Source of the DNA: Thermogemmatispora sp.
GTDB taxonomy: Bacteria > Chloroflexota > Ktedonobacteria > Ktedonobacterales > Ktedonobacteraceae
Direction: 5' to 3'
Length of the DNA stretch: 62,523 bases
NCBI RefSeq assembly: GCF_019683635.1
Contig: NZ_JADGIA010000004.1
Location: 1 to 62,523, forward strand
Position 1 is the first letter of the stretch. Each line of letters starts with the position of its first letter. A program made the translations under genes and the position numbers. Positions 23,220 through 35,425 of this stretch are shown piece after piece. Below the pieces are notes generated by a model that saw only the letters and a list, made by a program, of their open reading frames with translations, did no database searches and was not told where the DNA came from.

Positions 23220-24017
23220 TCAAATACATCCATGCTCTTCTTGATAGCAGCGACCGCTGTAGTTGCTCAGCTCGCAGAGGGCTTCCCAGCAGAGGGCGAG
23301 CTTGCGCCGCAGTGACGGCCTGACGGGTTCGCTCGCTTTCTCTGTGCCAATCGCGATCTCGGTGTAGACGTAGCCAGCGCGCACAAATTTATGGATCATT
23401 TCGGCATTAATGAGGTGCCCCTGCATCTCCAGGGCTTGTTGACGGAAAAACTCGGCGCGATAGAGCTTAAAGGGACAGGAGAGATCGCGCACACGCAGAC
23501 CCAGAGTGAAGCGCAACAGCCAGCTCCAGAGCAGCGCGGTCAACTGCTGCCAGCCCTGGCGCTGGCGAAAGCCGAGCACTGCGTCGTAGTCGCTCAGCAG
23601 GGCAAAGCTGCGCTTGAGGAGGTCCACATTGAAGCCAGGCTGAGCCTCCGTGAGGAGGACGAACTCTTTGCTGGTTTGGCTCAGGGCACTGACCAGGGCC
23701 TGGCCATAACTGCAGCTCGCGGGCTGGTGTAGGACGATCAGCCGCGGCTCCTCCGCGGCAAGGCGTTCGAGCAGTATGCCAGTGCGATCATGGCTCCCGC
23801 GATCGACAGCAAGAATCTCCAGGTCATCGGCCCAATCTGCCAGGTTGCTCAGCAGCGAGCGCACAACCAGTTCGATGCTCGCTTCGTCGTTCTGCGTCAA
23901 GAGCACGATCGAGAGGCTGCGTGGAACAGCGGCGGCTTCAGTATTGGACAGGACTTGCGCCCTGCCCGGTGCCTCCGTATCCTTGGTGTCGCTTTGTGCC
24001 AGGGACGATATGCTCAT
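23220..24017 (-). CDS. GT2-type glycosyltransferase, DPM1-like, with altered active site
   Basis: A 265-residue GT2-fold protein. SIVLLTQNDEASIELVVRSL is the usual N-terminal strand and helix; LEILAVDRGSHDRT stands where families have DDGSTDGT; ALVSALSQTSKEFVLLTEAQPGF stands where the nucleotide-sugar DxD (typically DADLQ) is expected, but the Asp pair is absent. LGLRVRDLSCPFKLYR matches the F-K-x-Y/R region of DPM1-like enzymes. No membrane segment is certain. It starts at 24017 with GAAAGGA upstream, and is 36 bp before the GT2/GT-C fusion gene. It may be a catalytically reduced partner; a non-DxD enzyme is also possible. Confidence 0.8.
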   Translation of the reverse strand: MSISSLAQSDTKDTEAPGRAQVLSNTEAAAVPRSLSIVLLTQNDEASIELVVRSLLSNLADWADDLEILAVDRGSHDRTGILLERLAAEEPRLIVLHQPASCSYGQALVSALSQTSKEFVLLTEAQPGFNVDLLKRSFALLSDYDAVLGFRQRQGWQQLTALLWSWLLRFTLGLRVRDLSCPFKLYRAEFFRQQALEMQGHLINAEMIHKFVRAGYVYTEIAIGTEKASEPVRPSLRRKLALCWEALCELSNYSGRCYQEEHGCI

Positions 24018-24370
24018 TGTGCTAGATATCCTTTCTCTAGATATGTGGCTACAGGTGCTTATTACCGTCTTTCTTCACACCGTAGAAGAAAGCTTTCCTT
24101 GCCTTTCTTAAGCTATTATGCGGGTGAGGAATTTAATATGTATTTGAATATGACCAAGACGGAGATAAGAGGGGACGAATGTTTGCTTCTGCATAAAAGA
24201 CTGGCATAGTCTCTTTGATATGAAGTACAATCAATTAATACAAGATCGTCGCTGATGAGAGAGGGGCTGAGAGATAGAGCGTAGGACTCTTGCCCGGAGA
24301 GTGTAGCTGGGCGGACAGCTTTTCGTCGTAGTACCTAAAAGGACGATCAGATGAGAGGAAGATTCCGACC
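24018..24370. other. Divergent intergenic region, AT-rich
   Basis: This 353-bp space parts the minus-strand glycosyltransferases from the plus-strand DUF488 gene. It is visibly richer in A and T than its flanks. No gene was found; one plus-strand promoter candidate is listed separately, and no good minus-strand promoter was picked out. Confidence 0.6.
24215..24244 (+). promoter_or_regulatory. Promoter candidate for the DUF488 gene
   Basis: TTGATA (24215-24220), 18 nt, then TACAAG (24239-24244). The -35 box matches five of six bases, the -10 box four. Transcription near 24251 would leave a leader of about 120 nt before the GTG at 24371. Confidence 0.35.
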
Positions 24371-25285
24371 GTGGCTATGCTCTATCGTCAGCGGCTCATC
24401 TTAGCACTGGCCGAACTGGCTGAGGGAGAGCTAGAGGAGGAGGCGGCGCAGCAGCTGCTGATGCTCTTATGCGACCGTGTGCGGAGCGAGCAAAGAGAGG
24501 CTCCTTATGAATTCGTTCCTGGGGGGAGGCGCTGGCGCAGCTTTGTTCTGGAGCACGACCTGCAGACGCTGCGTCTGCGTCGCTATCTGACGCCGCCGCC
24601 GCGGGTGGCGCTGCTTGCTCCTGTGGCAGGAGGCTCCTACCTGTCCCAGCTCCGTCAGGAGGATCGCCGCTTGTTGTCGCAAGTGTGGGAGGAAGGCCGG
24701 GGCCTGATGGCTGAGCGGAGTGGAGGCTTGCAGCTGCTGAGATGGCACCGGCAGCCCAGTGCTCTCCCCTCGCTGGAGGGGGGGCGTGGCGAAGCAGAGG
24801 AGAGCGCCTGTCTCTTCACGCTCGGCTACGAAGGCTTAAGCCTGGACGCCTATCTAACTCTGTTGCTCTCCCATCAGGTGCGTCTTCTAGTCGATGTACG
24901 ACGTCACCCATTTTCGCGCAAGTTTGGCTTTGCCAGGAAGCGCCTGGCTCAGGCCCTCTACGAGGTGGGGATCGCCTATCTCCATCTCCCGGCTCTGGGG
25001 GTGCCCTCCGAGCTGCGGAAAGAGCTGGAGAGCGAAGATGCGTATCGCGCTCTCTTTGCTCGTTATGTCACTGATCTGCTTCCGCAGGCAAAGGAGAGCA
25101 TTGAGCAGCTAGCAGCTCTCATTGCTGAAAAGAGGCGAGTGGCGCTGACCTGTTTTGAGGCTGATCCCGGCCACTGCCATCGTGCTGTCCTGGCTGCGTA
25201 CCTGCGTCGGCACGGCCACATCACTGTTCCTATCGTGCACGTAACCAGTACAACTGTCTCTGTCGAAGTGCAAGAGCCTGGCTAG
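24371..25285 (+). CDS. DUF488-domain protein with N-terminal extension
   Basis: A 304-residue protein. The C-terminal half (about 145-300) is a DUF488 domain: LFTLGYEGLSLDAYLTLL, LLVDVRRHPFSRKFGFARKRL, HLPALGVP, YVTDLLPQ, and VALTCFEADPGHCHRAVLA with paired Cys/His. The DUF488 family has no settled function; the Cys/His set could bind metal or form a catalytic site. The N-terminal 140 residues are helical and acidic or Arg-rich and have no match that I know. The GTG start has AGAGGA upstream; ATG at 24377 is the alternative. It is followed at 103 bp by the gene at 25389-26258, in the same direction, and they are likely cotranscribed. Confidence 0.82.
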   Translation: MAMLYRQRLILALAELAEGELEEEAAQQLLMLLCDRVRSEQREAPYEFVPGGRRWRSFVLEHDLQTLRLRRYLTPPPRVALLAPVAGGSYLSQLRQEDRRLLSQVWEEGRGLMAERSGGLQLLRWHRQPSALPSLEGGRGEAEESACLFTLGYEGLSLDAYLTLLLSHQVRLLVDVRRHPFSRKFGFARKRLAQALYEVGIAYLHLPALGVPSELRKELESEDAYRALFARYVTDLLPQAKESIEQLAALIAEKRRVALTCFEADPGHCHRAVLAAYLRRHGHITVPIVHVTSTTVSVEVQEPG

Positions 25286-25388
25286 TTGCAGCTGGCAGAC
25301 ACTGGCTGTGCTGGAAGGCTAGACGGCTGTGGCCAGCCAGGGCTTGAAGTGAGGGGACCGACCCCGCTGGCGCAAAGGAGGCTCTAGC

Positions 25389-26258
25389 GTGTATCTGCCT
25401 GAGACCCTGCCCGATGCTCGTGTATTGATCGCCGTCAAAGCCTATCCCCTCCCCTCCAGTAAATACGAAGAGCTGGTCTGTACCGCGGGAGTGCTAGAAA
25501 ATGGCAGATGGATACGCATTTACCCGATACCCTTCCGTAGCCTTCCCTATGGAGAGCAATATCGTAAATTCGAGTGGATTCGGCTCAATCTCGTCAAGAA
25601 TGCTAAAGATTTTCGCCCAGAGAGCTATCGGCCTCGCCTTAATCTTGACGAGCCAATCATACTCGATGGCCACATATCTGCTAGCCCCCAAGGCTGGGAA
25701 GAGCGCAAGAGCTATGTGCTTCGGGAAGTCTTCGATTCGATGTCGGAGGTTATTCGCTTGGCCAAAGGTCCAGAGCTGCGTTCGCTAGCTGTGCTTAAGC
25801 CTCGTGAAATCATCGACTTCACGATAGAGCCGACTAGCCGTCGCTGGAAAAAGAAGTGGGACGATTACTTTCTACAAAGCAATCTATTTGAGCAAGACAA
25901 CTCTGGGGAGGGGAAGAGGAGAGTTCCTATTAAGAAGCTGCCTTACAAATATTCCTATGTCTTCATGAGCGAAGGTGATAGCAAACCTCATAAGCTCTTA
26001 ATAGAGGATTGGGAGCTTGGTGCACTGTACTGGAACTGTTTGACGAGTACTGAGGGCGTTGAAGAGGAAGCCAATCGCCTGGTGCGTCGCAAGTATCTGG
26101 ATGAGTTTTGCTCAACGAGAGATATCTATTTGTTTCTGGGTACAACTTGGCAGTACCATCGGATAAGTCTTAACCCTTTTATTATTATTGGTGTTTTCTA
26201 TCCGCCAAAGCAGTCCCAAAAGCAAAAAGCCACCCCTATTCAGCTCAACCTTTTCTAA
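25389..26258 (+). CDS. Unknown protein ending in a sliding-clamp-binding-like motif
   Basis: A 289-residue soluble protein of no named family that I know. It opens with VLIAVKAYPLPSSKYEELVCTAG, then GRWIRIYPIPFRSLPYG, rich in aromatic residues. The final residues are PIQLNLF, which match the QL(S/D)LF-type beta-clamp-binding peptide used by many bacterial replication and repair proteins, and which sit at the free C-terminus as clamp motifs often do. The GTG start at 25389 has a perfect AAAGGAGG 7 nt away. Its codons are visibly richer in A and T than all neighbours, as in a transferred gene. With DUF488 next to it, a DNA-related role is my inference; no nuclease or helicase motif is seen. Confidence 0.75.
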   Translation: MYLPETLPDARVLIAVKAYPLPSSKYEELVCTAGVLENGRWIRIYPIPFRSLPYGEQYRKFEWIRLNLVKNAKDFRPESYRPRLNLDEPIILDGHISASPQGWEERKSYVLREVFDSMSEVIRLAKGPELRSLAVLKPREIIDFTIEPTSRRWKKKWDDYFLQSNLFEQDNSGEGKRRVPIKKLPYKYSYVFMSEGDSKPHKLLIEDWELGALYWNCLTSTEGVEEEANRLVRRKYLDEFCSTRDIYLFLGTTWQYHRISLNPFIIIGVFYPPKQSQKQKATPIQLNLF

Positions 26259-26281
26259 AGAGAAAAAGGAGCAGCAACAGT

Positions 26282-27100
26282 TCAGACCAGAGTCACGCGC
26301 TCCTTGCGCCATTCCAGCTTGCTATATTTTTCGGCCACGAGCTGCTCGGCCAGCTCCAGCTCGGAGCGGCTCAACTCACCGGGCACAAACTCCCGCTCCA
26401 GAGCCTGACCGAAGCCCTGACGGAAAGCCTCTGCTACCTGCTCCCAGCTCGCGTCTGGAGCGAAAGCATGCAGCGGCTGCGTCTTCTGGCGATAAAAGGC
26501 CAGAGCCTCGGCCCGGGCGGCCTCATCGGGGAAGCGCAGCAGCCCATAGAACTCCTCTGCCCGATCGTCCAGCGGCAGAGAACCCTGCTGCAGCAGGGCA
26601 TCCTCGCGCCAGACCTGGGCGCTGCCCACCAGCTTATAGCCACCGCTGGTCAAATCAGCCTGGGTTGAAGAAGCGAAGCAGGCCGCCGAGGGATGCTTCT
26701 GCACGCGACCATCGCTGATCTCTGCCTGCACGCCCAACAAGGCCAGCGCCTCTAATAAGCCGTGGGCCAGGTAGCTATAAGCTGCCACCACTCCGGAAGG
26801 CACCCCATAACGTCGGCTGATCACGATGCTGTAGGTGAACTCATCGCGGTGATAGACTGCGCGGCCCCCGGTTGGACGGCGCACCAGAGCCACACCGCGC
26901 TCGCGGCAGAGATCGCTGAGAATCTCGCGTTCTACGTTCTGAAAGCGGCCCAGCGAGATCGATGGCTGTGACCAGCGGAAAACACGCAAGGTTGGCGGCG
27001 CCTCGCCGCGCAAATGATGAATGAGAATGGCCTCATCGATAGCCATATTCAGGGCCGCATCGCGCACACCGGTATCGAGAAAACGAAACATCTCGGCCAT
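26282..27100 (-). CDS. Lipoate-protein ligase A / LipM-like octanoyltransferase
   Basis: A 272-residue member of the biotin/lipoate A/B ligase fold. Evidence: DAALNMAIDEAILIHH at the N-terminus, RVFRWSQPSISLGRFQ, the RRPTGGRAVYH substrate-binding motif, and SAACFASSTQADLTSGGYKLVGSAQ, where the Cys matches the nucleophile of LipM/LipL-type octanoyltransferases and the Lys is the conserved catalytic residue. It transfers octanoyl or lipoyl groups onto lipoyl domains or GcvH. LipM is my preference because of the Cys, but LplA-type ligase is not excluded. AAGGA lies 9 nt before the start. It is 32 bp downstream of tgt in the same direction. Confidence 0.87.
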   Translation of the reverse strand: MAEMFRFLDTGVRDAALNMAIDEAILIHHLRGEAPPTLRVFRWSQPSISLGRFQNVEREILSDLCRERGVALVRRPTGGRAVYHRDEFTYSIVISRRYGVPSGVVAAYSYLAHGLLEALALLGVQAEISDGRVQKHPSAACFASSTQADLTSGGYKLVGSAQVWREDALLQQGSLPLDDRAEEFYGLLRFPDEAARAEALAFYRQKTQPLHAFAPDASWEQVAEAFRQGFGQALEREFVPGELSRSELELAEQLVAEKYSKLEWRKERVTLV

Positions 27101-29606: not shown

Positions 29607-32312
29607 GTGTCTAACATTTCTCAACGGCCAGCTAAATTTGTTGAACAGTATACGCACAGGCAGAGGATCGGGTACCCAGATATGGATTCACGTGAACAAA
29701 ATGGAAGCCGGCATGAGGCGGGTACCCTGATGGGGCCAGAGGGAACTGATGGCCGACTCGTGGCCTCGATGGTTTCCCCAGATATGAGCGTGGACACCGA
29801 TGCACTCATCACTGCAGCCCCGGATGCCGCCAGTCAGGATCAGGATCGGCAAGGGCGGCGACAGCGAACCTGGACGGTGATCTATCCATATCAGCCCTCT
29901 GATGGGCATCTGGAGGGCGATGCCCTTGAGCAATTGCTGGCGGAGACACGGGCTTATCTCTCGCCACAGGATCTGGCGAAGATCGAGCGGGCTTACGAGC
30001 TGGCGAATCGGGCCCATATGGGGGTACGGCGTCGCTCGGGCGAGCCGTATATTCAGCATCCGCTGGCGGTGGCGCTCATTCTGACTCAGATGCGCATTGA
30101 TGCCGATGGCATTGTGGCCGCCTTACTCCATGATGTGGTTGAGGACAGTGACTATACCTTGGAGGAGGTACGGGCCCAGTTCGGTCCGGCGGTGGCGACC
30201 ATTGTGGACGGGGTGACAAAGTTTGATGCTCTGGCCGGCAAGCCCGGGTCCGGCTCCCCATCCGGGAGCGGCTCGCGTACGCCTGCCCCCGAGTCCGAAC
30301 GCGCAGAGGAGGCTGTGCGCGATCTCAAGAGCCGCCTGCGCTCCGAGACGGTGCGCAAGATGCTCCTGGCAATGGCGGAAGATCCGCGCGTGGTGGTCAT
30401 CAAGCTGGCCGACCGCCTGCATAATATGCGTACGCTCAGCGCCATGCCGCCGACCAAGCAGCAGATTATTGCCCGCGAGACAAGCGAGATCTATGCGCCA
30501 CTGGCGCGACGGCTGGGCATGGGCCTGGTGCAGGCCGAGCTGGAAGATCTGGCCTTTTATTATCTGGAGCCGGAACGCTACGAGCGCCTGGCGCGTGAGG
30601 TCGAGGAGGAGCGGCGCAAACGTCAGCCGTATGTCGATGCCGTCTGCAGTGCCATTGAGGAGGAGATGCGCCGCGCCGAGATCCATGCCGAGGTGCTGGC
30701 CTGGCAGAAGCATCTGGCCAGTATCAACCGTAAGTTGCTGCAGAGCGGCGGCGAGGTTAGTCAGCTGCATGACCTGGTCTCGTTCCGTATCCTCGTTGAT
30801 AGTGACCACGACTGTTATCTGGCCCTGGGCCATATCCATGCTCTCTGGCGGCCAAAAGATGGGCGCATCAAGGACTATATCGCTACCCCCAAGGTCAATG
30901 GCTACCAGTCCCTCCATACGACGGTCTTCTGCCTCGATGATCGCCTCGCTGAGATCCAGATCCGCACCCACGAGATGCAGCGCACGGCGGACTATGGGAT
31001 CGCCAGCTATTGGTACCTGCGTGAGCGCGGTGGCTCTCGCCTCTCCTATCGCGAGATGATCGCCTGGATCGAGCAACTGCGCGAGTGGCAGCGTGAGCTG
31101 CCGCAGAGCGCCGATGATTTCATAGAGGCCGTCAAGGGCGATATCTTCCAGGAGCAGATTTTTGTTTTTACCCCCAAAGGGGAAATTAAGGATCTTCCCC
31201 GCGGATCGACCCCGGTCGATATGGCCTATCGTATCCACACGGATATCGGCGATCACTGCGCGGGGGCCCGGATCATCACAAGCCTGGGTGACAGCGAGCG
31301 CCTGGTGACGCGCCTGGTCCCGCTGGATTATGAGCTGAAGAGTGGCGAGATCGTCGATATTGTGACCAACCAGGCGATTCATCCGACGCGCGACTGGCTG
31401 ACCTTTGTGCGTACGGCCAACGCGCGCACCAAGATTAAGCGCTACCTGAAGAATCACGAGCGCGAAATCAATCTGCAGCTTGGACGCGAGCGGCTGGATC
31501 TGGCGCTGAAGGCGGCGGGAGCAGTGGGCCTTGAGGCTCTGCGCGATGAGGAGCTGCTGCCCTTAGCGAGCGCGCGCAAGTATCAGTCGGTGGAGGCCCT
31601 CTATGTGGCGCTGGGACGGGGAGATCTGCCAATAGAGGACCTGGTCGAGCAGCTGCTACCGGTCTTGCGCGAGCGTGGGGCGCTGCGGCAGGCCGAAGCT
31701 ACCGCTGGATCATCTGACTCCGAGGGGCTGCCTGTGGTCGCCGGTCCAGCGCTCAATGGGCACCGTTTGCCGGCACCGGGTGCGGCGGCCCAGACCAACG
31801 AGAGGCCTCCGGCCCCTGGCGTGGCTACCCGCCTCGCTCATTGCTGTTGTCCCCTTCCGGGGGACACCATTGCTGGCTTTCTCAGCCCGAATAAGGGGTT
31901 GATCGTTCACCGCCAGGATTGCCGTACGCTCCAGCGCTTCCGCGAGCGTGTCAAAGGTCGGATCTTTGCTCTGGACTGGTCGCAGGTCAAAACGCAGTCC
32001 TATCTAGCCCCTATCACTATTGTGGCCCGTGATCGGGCTGGCCTCCTGCGCGATGTTGCGGCGGTGGTCAGTGATGCCGGCATCAACATGACGGCGGTCT
32101 CCTCAACGACGAATCCGGCCTTACAGAAGGCCGTGATTACGGCAACGATGGAGATCCAATCGGTGGACCAGATCGAGCGCGTTTTCAAACGCTTGCTCCA
32201 GGTCAAAAGTGTGGTTAGCGTGCGGCGCAACCTGGGGCATCGGGCTGGCCAAAGTGGTAGAGTCAATAGCCGCGCAGGCGCAGAGAGTACCCTTTCCGAG
32301 CCGCTCAGCTGA
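29607..32312 (+). CDS. Bifunctional (p)ppGpp synthetase/hydrolase
   Basis: A 901-residue RelA/SpoT homologue that makes and destroys the alarmone (p)ppGpp. A poorly conserved head of about 100 residues precedes the HD hydrolase: GEPYIQHPLAVALIL, LLHDVVEDSDYT, KLADRLHNMRTL, all intact. The synthetase has RIKDYIATPKVNGYQSLHT and EIQIRT; the RxKD motif is of the bifunctional type. TGS (IFVFTPKGEIKDL), a Zn-finger-like CCCPLPGD segment and a C-terminal ACT domain (RDRAGLLRDVAAVV) follow. The start is uncertain: GTG 29607 or ATG 29682, which has GAGGATCGGG upstream. A paralogue without a working hydrolase site is 521 bp downstream. Confidence 0.93.
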   Translation: MSNISQRPAKFVEQYTHRQRIGYPDMDSREQNGSRHEAGTLMGPEGTDGRLVASMVSPDMSVDTDALITAAPDAASQDQDRQGRRQRTWTVIYPYQPSDGHLEGDALEQLLAETRAYLSPQDLAKIERAYELANRAHMGVRRRSGEPYIQHPLAVALILTQMRIDADGIVAALLHDVVEDSDYTLEEVRAQFGPAVATIVDGVTKFDALAGKPGSGSPSGSGSRTPAPESERAEEAVRDLKSRLRSETVRKMLLAMAEDPRVVVIKLADRLHNMRTLSAMPPTKQQIIARETSEIYAPLARRLGMGLVQAELEDLAFYYLEPERYERLAREVEEERRKRQPYVDAVCSAIEEEMRRAEIHAEVLAWQKHLASINRKLLQSGGEVSQLHDLVSFRILVDSDHDCYLALGHIHALWRPKDGRIKDYIATPKVNGYQSLHTTVFCLDDRLAEIQIRTHEMQRTADYGIASYWYLRERGGSRLSYREMIAWIEQLREWQRELPQSADDFIEAVKGDIFQEQIFVFTPKGEIKDLPRGSTPVDMAYRIHTDIGDHCAGARIITSLGDSERLVTRLVPLDYELKSGEIVDIVTNQAIHPTRDWLTFVRTANARTKIKRYLKNHEREINLQLGRERLDLALKAAGAVGLEALRDEELLPLASARKYQSVEALYVALGRGDLPIEDLVEQLLPVLRERGALRQAEATAGSSDSEGLPVVAGPALNGHRLPAPGAAAQTNERPPAPGVATRLAHCCCPLPGDTIAGFLSPNKGLIVHRQDCRTLQRFRERVKGRIFALDWSQVKTQSYLAPITIVARDRAGLLRDVAAVVSDAGINMTAVSSTTNPALQKAVITATMEIQSVDQIERVFKRLLQVKSVVSVRRNLGHRAGQSGRVNSRAGAESTLSEPLS

Positions 32313-32833
32313 CCCGGCAAGGCAAAGAGCGTCTTTGATCAGCAAGCGAAGCGGAACGCCTCTCTGTGGCCGCTCTCTTGCTGGTGCTCTCCCTCGTTGC
32401 CAGGCGATGTACTTCCTGCTTTTGACTGAGCGGGCAGACGTGGGCGGCTGAGCTTGCCGCTGTTGCCTCTGTGACAGGCTGGCTGCGGGCCATTTCTCTC
32501 CTCTCTGATGTGATGGTACTCTTTACCCTGGGGTTGTCCAGCAGATGTCATCTTCGTTCGCCAAACCGATCGCGCTTTGGTTCCGCGCTGACAGGGGTTT
32601 CCCGGGGGTCTGTGCCTGTGGGGGCAGCTAGACAACGCTATCTGCAAGGTCTATAATCTGAAAGGATGTACTGCTAGAACCTGTGGAACTCTAGGCCCGG
32701 GATGCTGCCAGGGACAAGTGAAGGAGCACATTGGTGAAAAAGAACGGTGGCAGGGCCTCTGACGATTCTTGTAAAGCTACCCTGGAAGAACGATAAGTGA
32801 ATCTACACGGGACCATATCCTGCAGTTTTCTGC
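32313..32833. other. Gap between the two rel genes
   Basis: A 521-bp stretch with no supported gene. It contains a promoter for the second rel gene near its right end (listed separately), so the two rel genes need not share a transcript. Confidence 0.55.
32629..32657 (+). promoter_or_regulatory. Promoter of the second rel gene
   Basis: TAGACA (32629-32634), 17 nt, then TATAAT (32652-32657). The -10 box is a full match and the -35 box matches five of six. Transcription near 32664 leaves a leader of about 170 nt. Confidence 0.65.
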
Positions 32834-35425
32834 ATGAAATATAGAAATGTGCACATGGTCGAGATGACGATCAAGCCTGAGTCAGGCCGGCAGTTGGGAG
32901 GGCGCTTATCCGTGTCTGCGGCGGGAGCGCCGGGGGAAGTGGAAACTGGCGGAGGTCTGACCACTGCCGTTGGAGAGAAGCCCCCCGACGAGCGCGCGGC
33001 AGAAGCCTTGCTGGCTCGTGTCCGCGAATATATGTCTCCCGCTGAGATTGAGCAGGTACAGCATGCTTTGCGTCTGGCGCAGGAGCGCTGTCGCGGTGTC
33101 AGGGGAAAGCGTGCCCTGCCCCCCCTGGAACATGCGCTGGGGGTGGCCTTAATCCTGGCCGAGATGCGCATCGATGCCATCGGCGTCGCCGCGGGCCTGA
33201 TTTTCGAGGCGGTTGATGCCGAGCTGCTCTCGTTGGAGCGCGTGACTGAGGAGCTGGGGCAGCCGGTGGCGCGCGTGGTGAGCAGTATGCTGCGCCTCAA
33301 CATTCTGGAGCGCAAGAAGCATGTTGGCGCTCAGCTTTTGCCTGCGGGCCGTACCGAGGTGGAGAGCAGCCGCGAGAGCCGTAAGCGGCGCAACCGCGAT
33401 GCGCTACAGCATCAGCAGGCGGAGACGGTGCGCAAGATGTTTCTGGCCATGTCCGATGATCCGCGGGTAGTTCTGCTGAAACTGGCCTATCGCCTGCACG
33501 CGATGCGTATGTTGCGCGATCCGGTTTTCCAGTATGACCCGCAGGAGCGGCTGACGATGGCGCGCGAGACGCGCGAGATCTATGCACCGCTGGCGGGCCG
33601 CCTCGGGATGTCACGCGTGGAGTGCGAGCTGGAGGACCTGGCTTTCGAGATCTTGCAGCCTGTGCAATATGCCTGGGTCCGTGATCAGATGGAGGCCGAG
33701 AAAAAGCAGTGGGGGGCCTATGTGGAGAAGGTCTGTGAGATTCTGCGCCGCGAGATGGCGGCCATCGGCCTGAAACATGTGGAGGTCTCTGGGCGCATTA
33801 AGCACCTCTACAGCTTCTACAAGAAGATTCTGCGCGCCGCTGGCCTGCCGACCCAGCCGAGCCTGCTTGGCACAGAGAGCCTGGAGGATTTGAAGCGCGG
33901 CCTGGATCTGAATCAGATCCATGATGTGATCGCCTTCCGCATCCTGGTGGAGACCACCCAGGATTGTTATCTGGCCTTGGGCCATGTCCATAGTCTCTGG
34001 AAGCCTAAAGAGGGCCGTATTAAGGACTATATTGCAAATCCCAAGCCGAACGGCTATCAGGCCCTCCATACGACGGTCTTCTGCGTCGACGAGCAGTTGG
34101 TGGAGATTCAGATTCGCACCTTTGAGATGCATCAGATCGCCGAGTATGGGGTGGCCATGCACTGGCACTATAAGGATGTGGGGGATCACGCTTCTCCTTC
34201 AGCCAAGGAGCTGTTGACCTGGCTACGCCAGCTGGCTGAGTGGCAGCGCGAGCTGCGGGCTTCGCAGAGCGGCGAGCCTGAGCCACCAGAGAGGTCGCGC
34301 AGCGATCCGTTCTCTGAGCAGATCTTTGTCTTTACTCCCAAGGGCGAGGTTAAGGATCTGCCAGTTGGCTCGACGCCGATCGATTTCGCTTATCGCATCC
34401 ATAGCGAGATTGGTAACCACTGCGCCGGTGCACGCATCATTACGGAGATCGGCGATGGCGAGAGCGAGCGGCTGGTAGCGCGCATGGTTCCCCTTGACTA
34501 CGAGCTGAAGAATGGGGAGATCGTCGATATTACAACAAGCCGCACGGCTCATCCGAGCCGCGACTGGCTCAATTTTGCGCGCACAGCCACGGCTCGCAGC
34601 CATATTCGCCGTTATCTGAAGGCCCACGAGCGCGATATCAATATCCAGATTGGACGGGAACGCCTGGATCGCGAGCTGAAGGCCCTCGGCGTCCGCGGAC
34701 TGGAGGTGCTGACGGAGGATCTGCAGGATCGTTTGCTGGAGGAGTACAACGCTCAGCGCGAGCAGCGGGAGCCGCGCCTGGCTTCCTTTGAGGATCTGCT
34801 GGCGGCTATTGGCAGCGATAAGATCCGCCAGCACTGGGTGGCGGTACGCCTGGGCGAGTATCTGCAGATCCGCGACCGCGATGGACGTGAGCGTGAGAAT
34901 GGCGCTCACCAGGAGGAGGAGCCGCTGCTGTCAACGAGCAGTACGAAGGAGGCTCCAGCGGTCAATCTCTATGTCGATGGGGTCACTGGCCTGCTGACAC
35001 GCCTGGCAAACTGCTGCTGCCCTCTGCCTGGCGATGCTATCGTGGGCTTTATTAGCCGTGGCCGCGGTGTGATTGTACATCGGGCCGATTGCCCCAATAT
35101 CGCCCGCTACCGCGAGCATAGCAGCGAGCGCTTGATTACGGTGAGCTGGGCCGGCGTGGAGCAGTCGCACTATCTGGCCCCGATCGTGGTGACGGCCCGC
35201 GATCGCCCGGGCCTGATGCGCGATATTGCCGGAGCCATCGCCGAGCTGGGCATCAATATGGCTGCTTTGTCTACTCATACCAACGGCTCGCGTGAGCTGG
35301 CGGTGGTCAATGCGACGCTGGAGATCGAGAACCTGGAGCAGCTCCAGCGTATCATTGCTCGCCTTGAACGAGTAAAGGATGTATTGCAGGTAGGGCGCGA
35401 TTTGAAGCGTAGCCGCAGGCACTAG
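32834..35425 (+). CDS. RelA/SpoT paralogue with degenerate hydrolase domain
   Basis: An 863-residue RelA/SpoT protein with the same TGS-CCCPLPGD-ACT tail as the gene before it. In the hydrolase domain the HD-type motif reads LIFEAVDAE where the neighbour has LLHDVVEDS, and KLAYRLHAMRML replaces KLADRLHNMRTL, so metal-dependent hydrolysis should be lost. The synthetase keeps RIKDYIANPKPNGYQALHT and EIQIRT. A 30-residue insert (around DLKRGLDLNQIHD) lies in the synthetase. So it is probably a synthetase-only alarmone enzyme, with RxKD rather than the E. coli RelA-like EXDD motif. The start at 32834 has no clear ribosome site; ATG 32855 is an alternative. Confidence 0.9.
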   Translation: MKYRNVHMVEMTIKPESGRQLGGRLSVSAAGAPGEVETGGGLTTAVGEKPPDERAAEALLARVREYMSPAEIEQVQHALRLAQERCRGVRGKRALPPLEHALGVALILAEMRIDAIGVAAGLIFEAVDAELLSLERVTEELGQPVARVVSSMLRLNILERKKHVGAQLLPAGRTEVESSRESRKRRNRDALQHQQAETVRKMFLAMSDDPRVVLLKLAYRLHAMRMLRDPVFQYDPQERLTMARETREIYAPLAGRLGMSRVECELEDLAFEILQPVQYAWVRDQMEAEKKQWGAYVEKVCEILRREMAAIGLKHVEVSGRIKHLYSFYKKILRAAGLPTQPSLLGTESLEDLKRGLDLNQIHDVIAFRILVETTQDCYLALGHVHSLWKPKEGRIKDYIANPKPNGYQALHTTVFCVDEQLVEIQIRTFEMHQIAEYGVAMHWHYKDVGDHASPSAKELLTWLRQLAEWQRELRASQSGEPEPPERSRSDPFSEQIFVFTPKGEVKDLPVGSTPIDFAYRIHSEIGNHCAGARIITEIGDGESERLVARMVPLDYELKNGEIVDITTSRTAHPSRDWLNFARTATARSHIRRYLKAHERDINIQIGRERLDRELKALGVRGLEVLTEDLQDRLLEEYNAQREQREPRLASFEDLLAAIGSDKIRQHWVAVRLGEYLQIRDRDGRERENGAHQEEEPLLSTSSTKEAPAVNLYVDGVTGLLTRLANCCCPLPGDAIVGFISRGRGVIVHRADCPNIARYREHSSERLITVSWAGVEQSHYLAPIVVTARDRPGLMRDIAGAIAELGINMAALSTHTNGSRELAVVNATLEIENLEQLQRIIARLERVKDVLQVGRDLKRSRRH

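Follow-up and report, generated by a model that had tools for sequence, protein, structure and literature searches.

We identified, in a 62,523-nucleotide stretch of Thermogemmatispora DNA (hereafter the window), a pair of adjacent genes encoding a DUF488 protein of two domains and a protein predicted to carry two OB folds. Judged by its sequence, the pair is a member of PDC-M19, a candidate system already catalogued by PADLOC, and hence is not new as a system; we name the two proteins M19A and M19B accordingly. As to how PDC-M19 may work, we propose, at roughly even chances, that M19B is a clamp-docked single-stranded DNA (ssDNA)-binding adaptor that brings the DUF488 enzyme M19A to replicating DNA, likely against phages or plasmids. 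The reading of M19B as a dual-OB protein with clamp-binding motifs, and the parallel with another candidate, PDC-M45, may be new here, and an earlier mention in the literature is possible.

In the list of open reading frames (ORFs) the DUF488 gene spans 24371-25285 (plus strand, 304 aa) and the second gene 25389-26258 (plus strand, 289 aa), with 103 bp between them, while the minus strand encodes the genes on either side (23220-24017 and 26282-27100); these coordinates agree exactly with the initial annotation of the locus, which described two co-directional genes 103 bp apart bounded by opposite-strand genes. The mechanical start of the first gene is the GTG at 24371, from which the 304 residues are counted, and its likely start is the ATG at 24377 (24377-25285), because homologues begin there with M[LF]YRRK. 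A ribosome-binding-site-like sequence, AAAGGAGG, is read directly at 25375-25382 on the plus strand, 6 bases upstream of the GTG start of M19B. The initial annotation also took the composition of the locus to look foreign. The M19B gene indeed has the lowest GC content of 35 ORFs compared in the window (48.0%, GC3 0.529, versus 61.5 ± 2.2%, mean and standard deviation, for the other ORFs), and the claim holds as well for the 353-bp AT-rich spacer to the left of the pair (24018-24370, GC 0.436), in which no sigma-70-like promoter was found above chance. It does not hold for the M19A gene, whose composition is ordinary (GC 0.612, GC3 0.655), and the deviating codon use of the M19B gene (z 4.9, relative to the window ORFs only) is equalled by several ordinary genes. 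No defence genes lie beside the pair in the window, where the neighbours are lipoate ligase, tgt and relA-like genes.

M19A passes the Pfam models DUF488 (PF04343; E 8e-30, score 104.4, cut-off 22.2) and DUF488-N3a (PF22751, 'active DUF488-N3'; score 40.4, cut-off 27); it keeps the Cys/Arg motif of these domains and adds an N-terminal domain of ~130 residues. M19B had no match in Pfam or NCBIfam, and searches by sequence, profiles included, found no PDB relative of either protein. Both proteins strongly match PDC-M19 (M19A, E 3.9e-71; M19B, E 1.9e-107), M19B over nearly its whole length and M19A best over its DUF488 half, and in the window both components are present, co-directional and adjacent (103 bp). 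We found no structural difference between the catalogued system and the pair in the window; the mechanism proposed here is absent from the catalogue entry. The candidates of this catalogue stem from a 'guilt-by-embedding' survey, and validation is wanting for most of them (PMC12988326).

Loci encoding M19B were drawn from 61 relatives, 301 Chloroflexota genomes, a GTDB scan (at least 544 relatives, 80 of them kept), plasmids, phages and viral contigs. A DUF488 gene was adjacent to the M19B gene in 170 of 182 loci, which are not phylogenetically independent and include some near-identical viral contigs. On the adjacency check suggested in the initial annotation the two genes are thus neighbours in nearly all loci. 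The order was A then B in 137 loci, convergent in 31, where the 3′ ends overlap or abut, and B then A in two. The 12 non-adjacent loci include contig-edge fragments, broken copies, three very distant relatives and three loci with an ASCH-like gene. Distant solitary relatives of M19B in other Chloroflexota (L043, L044 and L045) have neither a DUF488 neighbour nor the C-terminal motif described below. In the three ASCH-like loci the gene is small and directly precedes the M19B gene (L056, 5994-6335; L063, 9566-9970; L224, 7470-7841, the last being one locus with L020); this assignment has a Pfam E of 0.0067 in one of the three loci and no match in two. These loci suggest that the partner slot of M19B is exchangeable, with an ASCH-like gene taking the place of the M19A gene.

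The pairing can also be followed from the side of M19A. Among the relatives, the two-domain M19A gene adjoins an M19B gene, intact or broken, in 10 of 12 genomes; the two exceptions are a documented loss of M19B and a genome in which no M19B was found and a run of Ns lies beside M19A (G057). Other DUF488 lineages in the relatives are not paired with M19B. The distance matrices of the two proteins correlate (r 0.60, n=87, permutation maximum 0.27), with a contribution from shared phylogeny. The pair is kept through three arrangements. In two of them the genes are separate, either with A ahead of B or convergent; in the third, which is archaeal, B lies beside a fusion in which a ParB N-domain and an HTH precede the DUF488 domain, as on plasmids of Sulfolobus and Haloquadratum. 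Such ParB-HTH-DUF488 fusions were located on archaeal plasmids at L127 2933-3979, L197 2930-3979 and L193 4088-5170, and on the Sulfolobus plasmid the fusion and M19B are followed by an ORF that looks nuclease-like by eye and has no Pfam match. CTP binding has been reported for an archaeal ParB-fold fusion containing DUF488-HTH (PMC12704722).

The distribution of the family is patchy, with about 26 strong matches in the 301 Chloroflexota genomes, and extends over bacteria, archaea, conjugative plasmids, temperate phages, prophages and 60 viral contigs; Synechococcus elongatus, included as a control genome, also has it. A search for E. coli carriers matched none, and querying the viral contigs for more archaeal members gave nothing useful. 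In the temperate Gordonia phage Eviarto (L128 4021-6268, genes 44-42), gene 43 encodes M19B, with QISLF near its end, and gene 42 the DUF488 protein, and the immunity repressor is next to the pair. In 129 loci the GC content of both genes is ~7 points lower than that of their flanks, which is consistent with mobility of the family.

Within Thermogemmatispora the history is different from what the initial annotation implied when it called the pair apparently transferred: the wording suits the family, generally AT-rich relative to its flanks, and not a recent event here. Four congeners share the position of the pair, which is intact in G002 and G003 and incomplete in G004 and G005, and T. aurantia A1-2 (L065) has the same locus. 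The pair is no recent import in this genus, and synteny speaks against a recent arrival in this genome. G005 lacks the segment corresponding to 25262-25783 of the window, that is, the end of M19A and the first 131 residues of M19B, and in G004 the 3′ part of M19B is at a contig edge. In the sister genome G001 (L212) the stretch 25369-26262, which holds M19B, is exactly absent, with a few filler bases at the junction, and the M19A gene is intact at the same locus and 93% identical. M19B is also broken in G014 and interrupted by a stop codon in G027, with M19A open in both. Where intact in the genus, M19B evolves under strong purifying selection (dN/dS 0.09-0.14), and selection on M19A is moderate (0.22-0.32). 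On these sequence comparisons the pair is an old resident of the genus that is sometimes lost.

The strands in the AlphaFold model of M19B (pLDDT 87.9) follow the order of two OB folds, predicted at residues 1-95 (25389-25673, plus strand) and ~133-273 (25785-26207, plus strand), with a conserved patch in the first of them (P20..S23....E28.VC.AG / W41.R.YP...R50). The PDB yielded 15 Foldseek matches with E < 0.001, every one an OB assembly that binds ssDNA or acts in replication or repair, a nucleotide excision repair (NER) complex among them; the best are archaeal RPA, CST, TEBP and Teb1 (E from 3e-5), followed by POT1 and HIN-200, and the six viral structures matched at E < 0.001 are all baculovirus LEF-3. 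TM-scores were low (0.2-0.3) and rmsd high, probably reflecting differing angles between the domains, and the structural matches are therefore evidence at the level of the fold only. Tandem OB folds are shared with Pfam DuOB (PF22557), in M19B by the predicted model; the window protein does not match that family and so stays below its gathering score, some M19B relatives match it weakly (best E 4.8e-4, n=9), and DuOB is the top weak match for three of nine diverse family members. The model thus predicts M19B to be a tandem-OB protein and a divergent relative of DuOB. Tandem OB folds are likewise a feature of RPA-type ssDNA-binding proteins, and distant M19B relatives carry in the second fold an RPA-like C-x4-C-x2-H zinc-like motif; M19B differs from RPA-type proteins in that it has no sequence similarity to them, its TM-scores are low and it carries clamp motifs, which do not characterise RPA. 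From the predicted fold we infer that M19B looks like an ssDNA-binding protein.

Two clamp-binding-like motifs in M19B are the basis for placing it at the replication fork. QSNLF (residues 163-167; 25875-25889, plus strand) borders a linker insertion of the second OB fold that is modelled with low confidence (low pLDDT at residues ~161-180), and QLNLF (residues 285-289; 26241-26255, plus strand) lies in the disordered tail, residues 277-289. Bacterial clamp binding follows the consensus QL[S/D]LF or QxxLF (PMC12309361), and QLNLF is the motif of Pol V UmuC, crystallised on the beta clamp (PMC3716654), to which the motif in the window is identical; many M19B homologues have QLSLF, the motif of the clamp client PolC. 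UmuC and PolC are unrelated to M19B and have the motif in common with it by convergence. Among 92 M19B representatives at 70% identity, a strict QxxLF is found in the last 14 residues of 44 (mean 1.35 and maximum 7 in 1000 shuffles), a looser form of the C-terminal motif in 70 (shuffled, 9.7) and an internal QxxLF in 69 (shuffled, 2.9, maximum 9), and by the looser patterns 65 have both motifs. ORFs neighbouring the loci carry a C-terminal QxxLF in 2 of 1462 cases. M19A homologues hold a QKLLF inside a folded helix, which is surely no clamp motif, so that the pattern alone proves nothing; the argument that M19B may bind the clamp is carried by the position and conservation of its motifs and by the predicted disorder around them. 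The archaeal motifs are mixed, QATLDQYI in Sulfolobus, QPGLDSF in Natronococcus and QAKLF in Haloquadratum. A clean switch to PCNA motifs in archaea was considered and set aside, as the members are too few and include one counter-example.

The model of M19A (AlphaFold, pLDDT 88.7) consists of a helical, winged-helix-like N-terminal domain with a small wing (residues ~1-125) and the DUF488 domain (~145-290). The latter has conserved DxR (173-175), N177, S180, R214, CxE (259-261) and CHR (267-269), among which D173, R175, C259, E261, C267, H268 and R269 are invariant across 48 homologues. Foldseek gave weak matches only, PTP-fold phosphatases among them (3ro1, E 0.09). We take DUF488 to be a member of the rhodanese-phosphatase superfamily, which Burroughs and Aravind reportedly linked in 2023 to nucleic acid modifications and conflicts.

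To describe the surroundings of the pair elsewhere we used 35 loci with full 10-kb flanks and compared the products of the two closest genes on either side, 129 proteins in all, with those of 129 outermost genes. Methylase_S occurred in eight near genes and, by Pfam, in none listed among the distal ones, where PADLOC finds one specificity subunit; near genes also included HsdR domains in three, AAA_21 in four and radical-SAM in three. Since HsdR genes of more than 1000 residues were left out, the near count is conservative. The large gene directly 5′ of M19A in L064, L069 and L074 has an HsdR match in L064, with the others 85% and 71% identical. Type I restriction-modification (RM) genes are thus enriched near the pair, which is embedded in Type I RM loci elsewhere.

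Taken together with the catalogue, these surroundings make a defence role for PDC-M19 likely. The initial annotation had guessed at a small defence module; the guess fits the catalogue because both proteins strongly match PDC-M19, and it fits the Type I RM neighbours elsewhere, while no defence island surrounds the pair in the window. In the mechanism we favour, M19B would be a tandem-OB adaptor that binds ssDNA, and its internal and C-terminal motifs would dock it on the bacterial beta sliding clamp; such docking would deliver it to replicating or newly replicated DNA. M19A would be a Cys-based enzyme of the rhodanese/phosphatase kind that has a helical reader domain of its own; recruited by M19B, it would chemically process DNA or DNA ends, and the benefit would be interference with phage or plasmid replication. 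Points against this model are the carriage of the pair by phages and plasmids, the lack of defence neighbours in the window, the low TM-scores and the mixed archaeal motifs. Its main rival keeps the docking and changes the purpose: M19B would direct M19A to stalled forks or to lesions in host DNA, for DNA repair or damage tolerance. In favour of this rival, repair proteins typically have clamp motifs and RPA-like folds, this genus has long carried the pair on its chromosome between housekeeping genes, and radical-SAM proteins occur three times among its near neighbours. Upstream of the pair in L112 (6636-9075) are two genes, one SplB-like (radical-SAM) and one 2H-phosphoesterase-like, assigned partly by eye, whose products also end in QGxLF; they form another possible clamp-client cluster. 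Repair genes do not typically show the patchy distribution, the GC depression, the location inside Type I RM loci or the presence on prophages and plasmids seen here, and M19B has repeatedly been lost or broken; we regard a repair function as rather unlikely.

The superfamily's reported link to nucleic acid modification, together with the ASCH-like gene replacing M19A in three loci and the mobile-element carriage seen, would also suit an enzyme that adds a group to, or removes one from, DNA or nucleotides in hosts and mobile elements, with the dual-OB protein as its substrate reader. The ASCH assignment is, however, sub-threshold and no donor-generating enzyme was linked to the pair, which leaves this reading improbable. 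We consider it highly improbable that the pair is a selfish or counter-defence device by which mobile elements stabilise or protect plasmid and phage replication: it does occur on conjugative plasmids, beside the repressor in temperate Gordonia phages, on 60 viral contigs and, in archaeal plasmids, as a fusion with a ParB-like partition protein, but most loci are not recognisably mobile and the chromosomal locus is stable across the genus. The toxin-like role raised in the initial annotation found no support. Two compact, often overlapping genes, and a weak resemblance of the N-terminal domain to Panacea (SocA antitoxin) in one M19A homologue (sub-threshold E 0.0053), might recall a toxin-antitoxin pair; yet M19B occurs without M19A in L056, L063 and L224 and resembles an ssDNA-binding adaptor, not a toxin, and M19A remains intact in G001 after the loss of M19B and open in G014, G027 and G005, and so is no toxin that needs M19B. 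These loss patterns led us to reject the reading, which we hold to be the least probable of all.

The clamp-docked adaptor model gains a parallel from the other DUF488 genes in the relatives. These come two in tandem, in several cases beside a dual-OB gene, and match PADLOC PDC-M45, in which M45A is a DuOB protein and M45B and M45C are DUF488 proteins. In the first DUF488 protein of PDC-M45, Q..[LM][FW] is found in the tail of 10 of 11 (shuffled, 0.17, maximum 2), in a small sample from one phylum and for a motif that was noticed before it was tested. Motifs resembling QLSLF, QLTLF or QLSLW lie in the C-terminal tails of the DUF488 proteins of L244, L245, L256, L240, L248 and others, and simple single DUF488 proteins (L249-L252 and L254) have no tail motif. 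PDC-M45 thus resembles PDC-M19 in combining DUF488, a dual-OB partner and a clamp-type motif, and differs from it in that its DUF488 proteins number two, its DuOB is canonical and the DUF488 tail, not the OB protein, carries the motif; the two catalogued candidates are therefore alike in enzyme, partner and motif, the last on different subunits. Profile-profile support for homology between M19B and M45A is weak (43.7% probability).

More tentatively, PDC-M19, PDC-M45 and the archaeal ParB-DUF488 proteins could belong to one superfamily of clamp-docked, fork-targeted immune enzymes that recognise DNA during replication; the motif would have moved between subunits (the OB protein in PDC-M19, DUF488 in PDC-M45), and in archaea its place would be taken by PCNA-type motifs or a ParB CTPase clamp. 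Both candidates are widespread and catalogued without a mechanism, and DUF488 is without a settled function; dual clamp motifs on a predicted ssDNA-binding partner give them one concrete testable hypothesis. If it is true, the host sliding clamp would join the short list of immune cues for finding replicating foreign DNA.

Apart from the pair, the window contains at 29607-35425 two adjoining relA/spoT-like genes (29607-32312 and 32834-35425) that are ~70% identical at the DNA level in parts.
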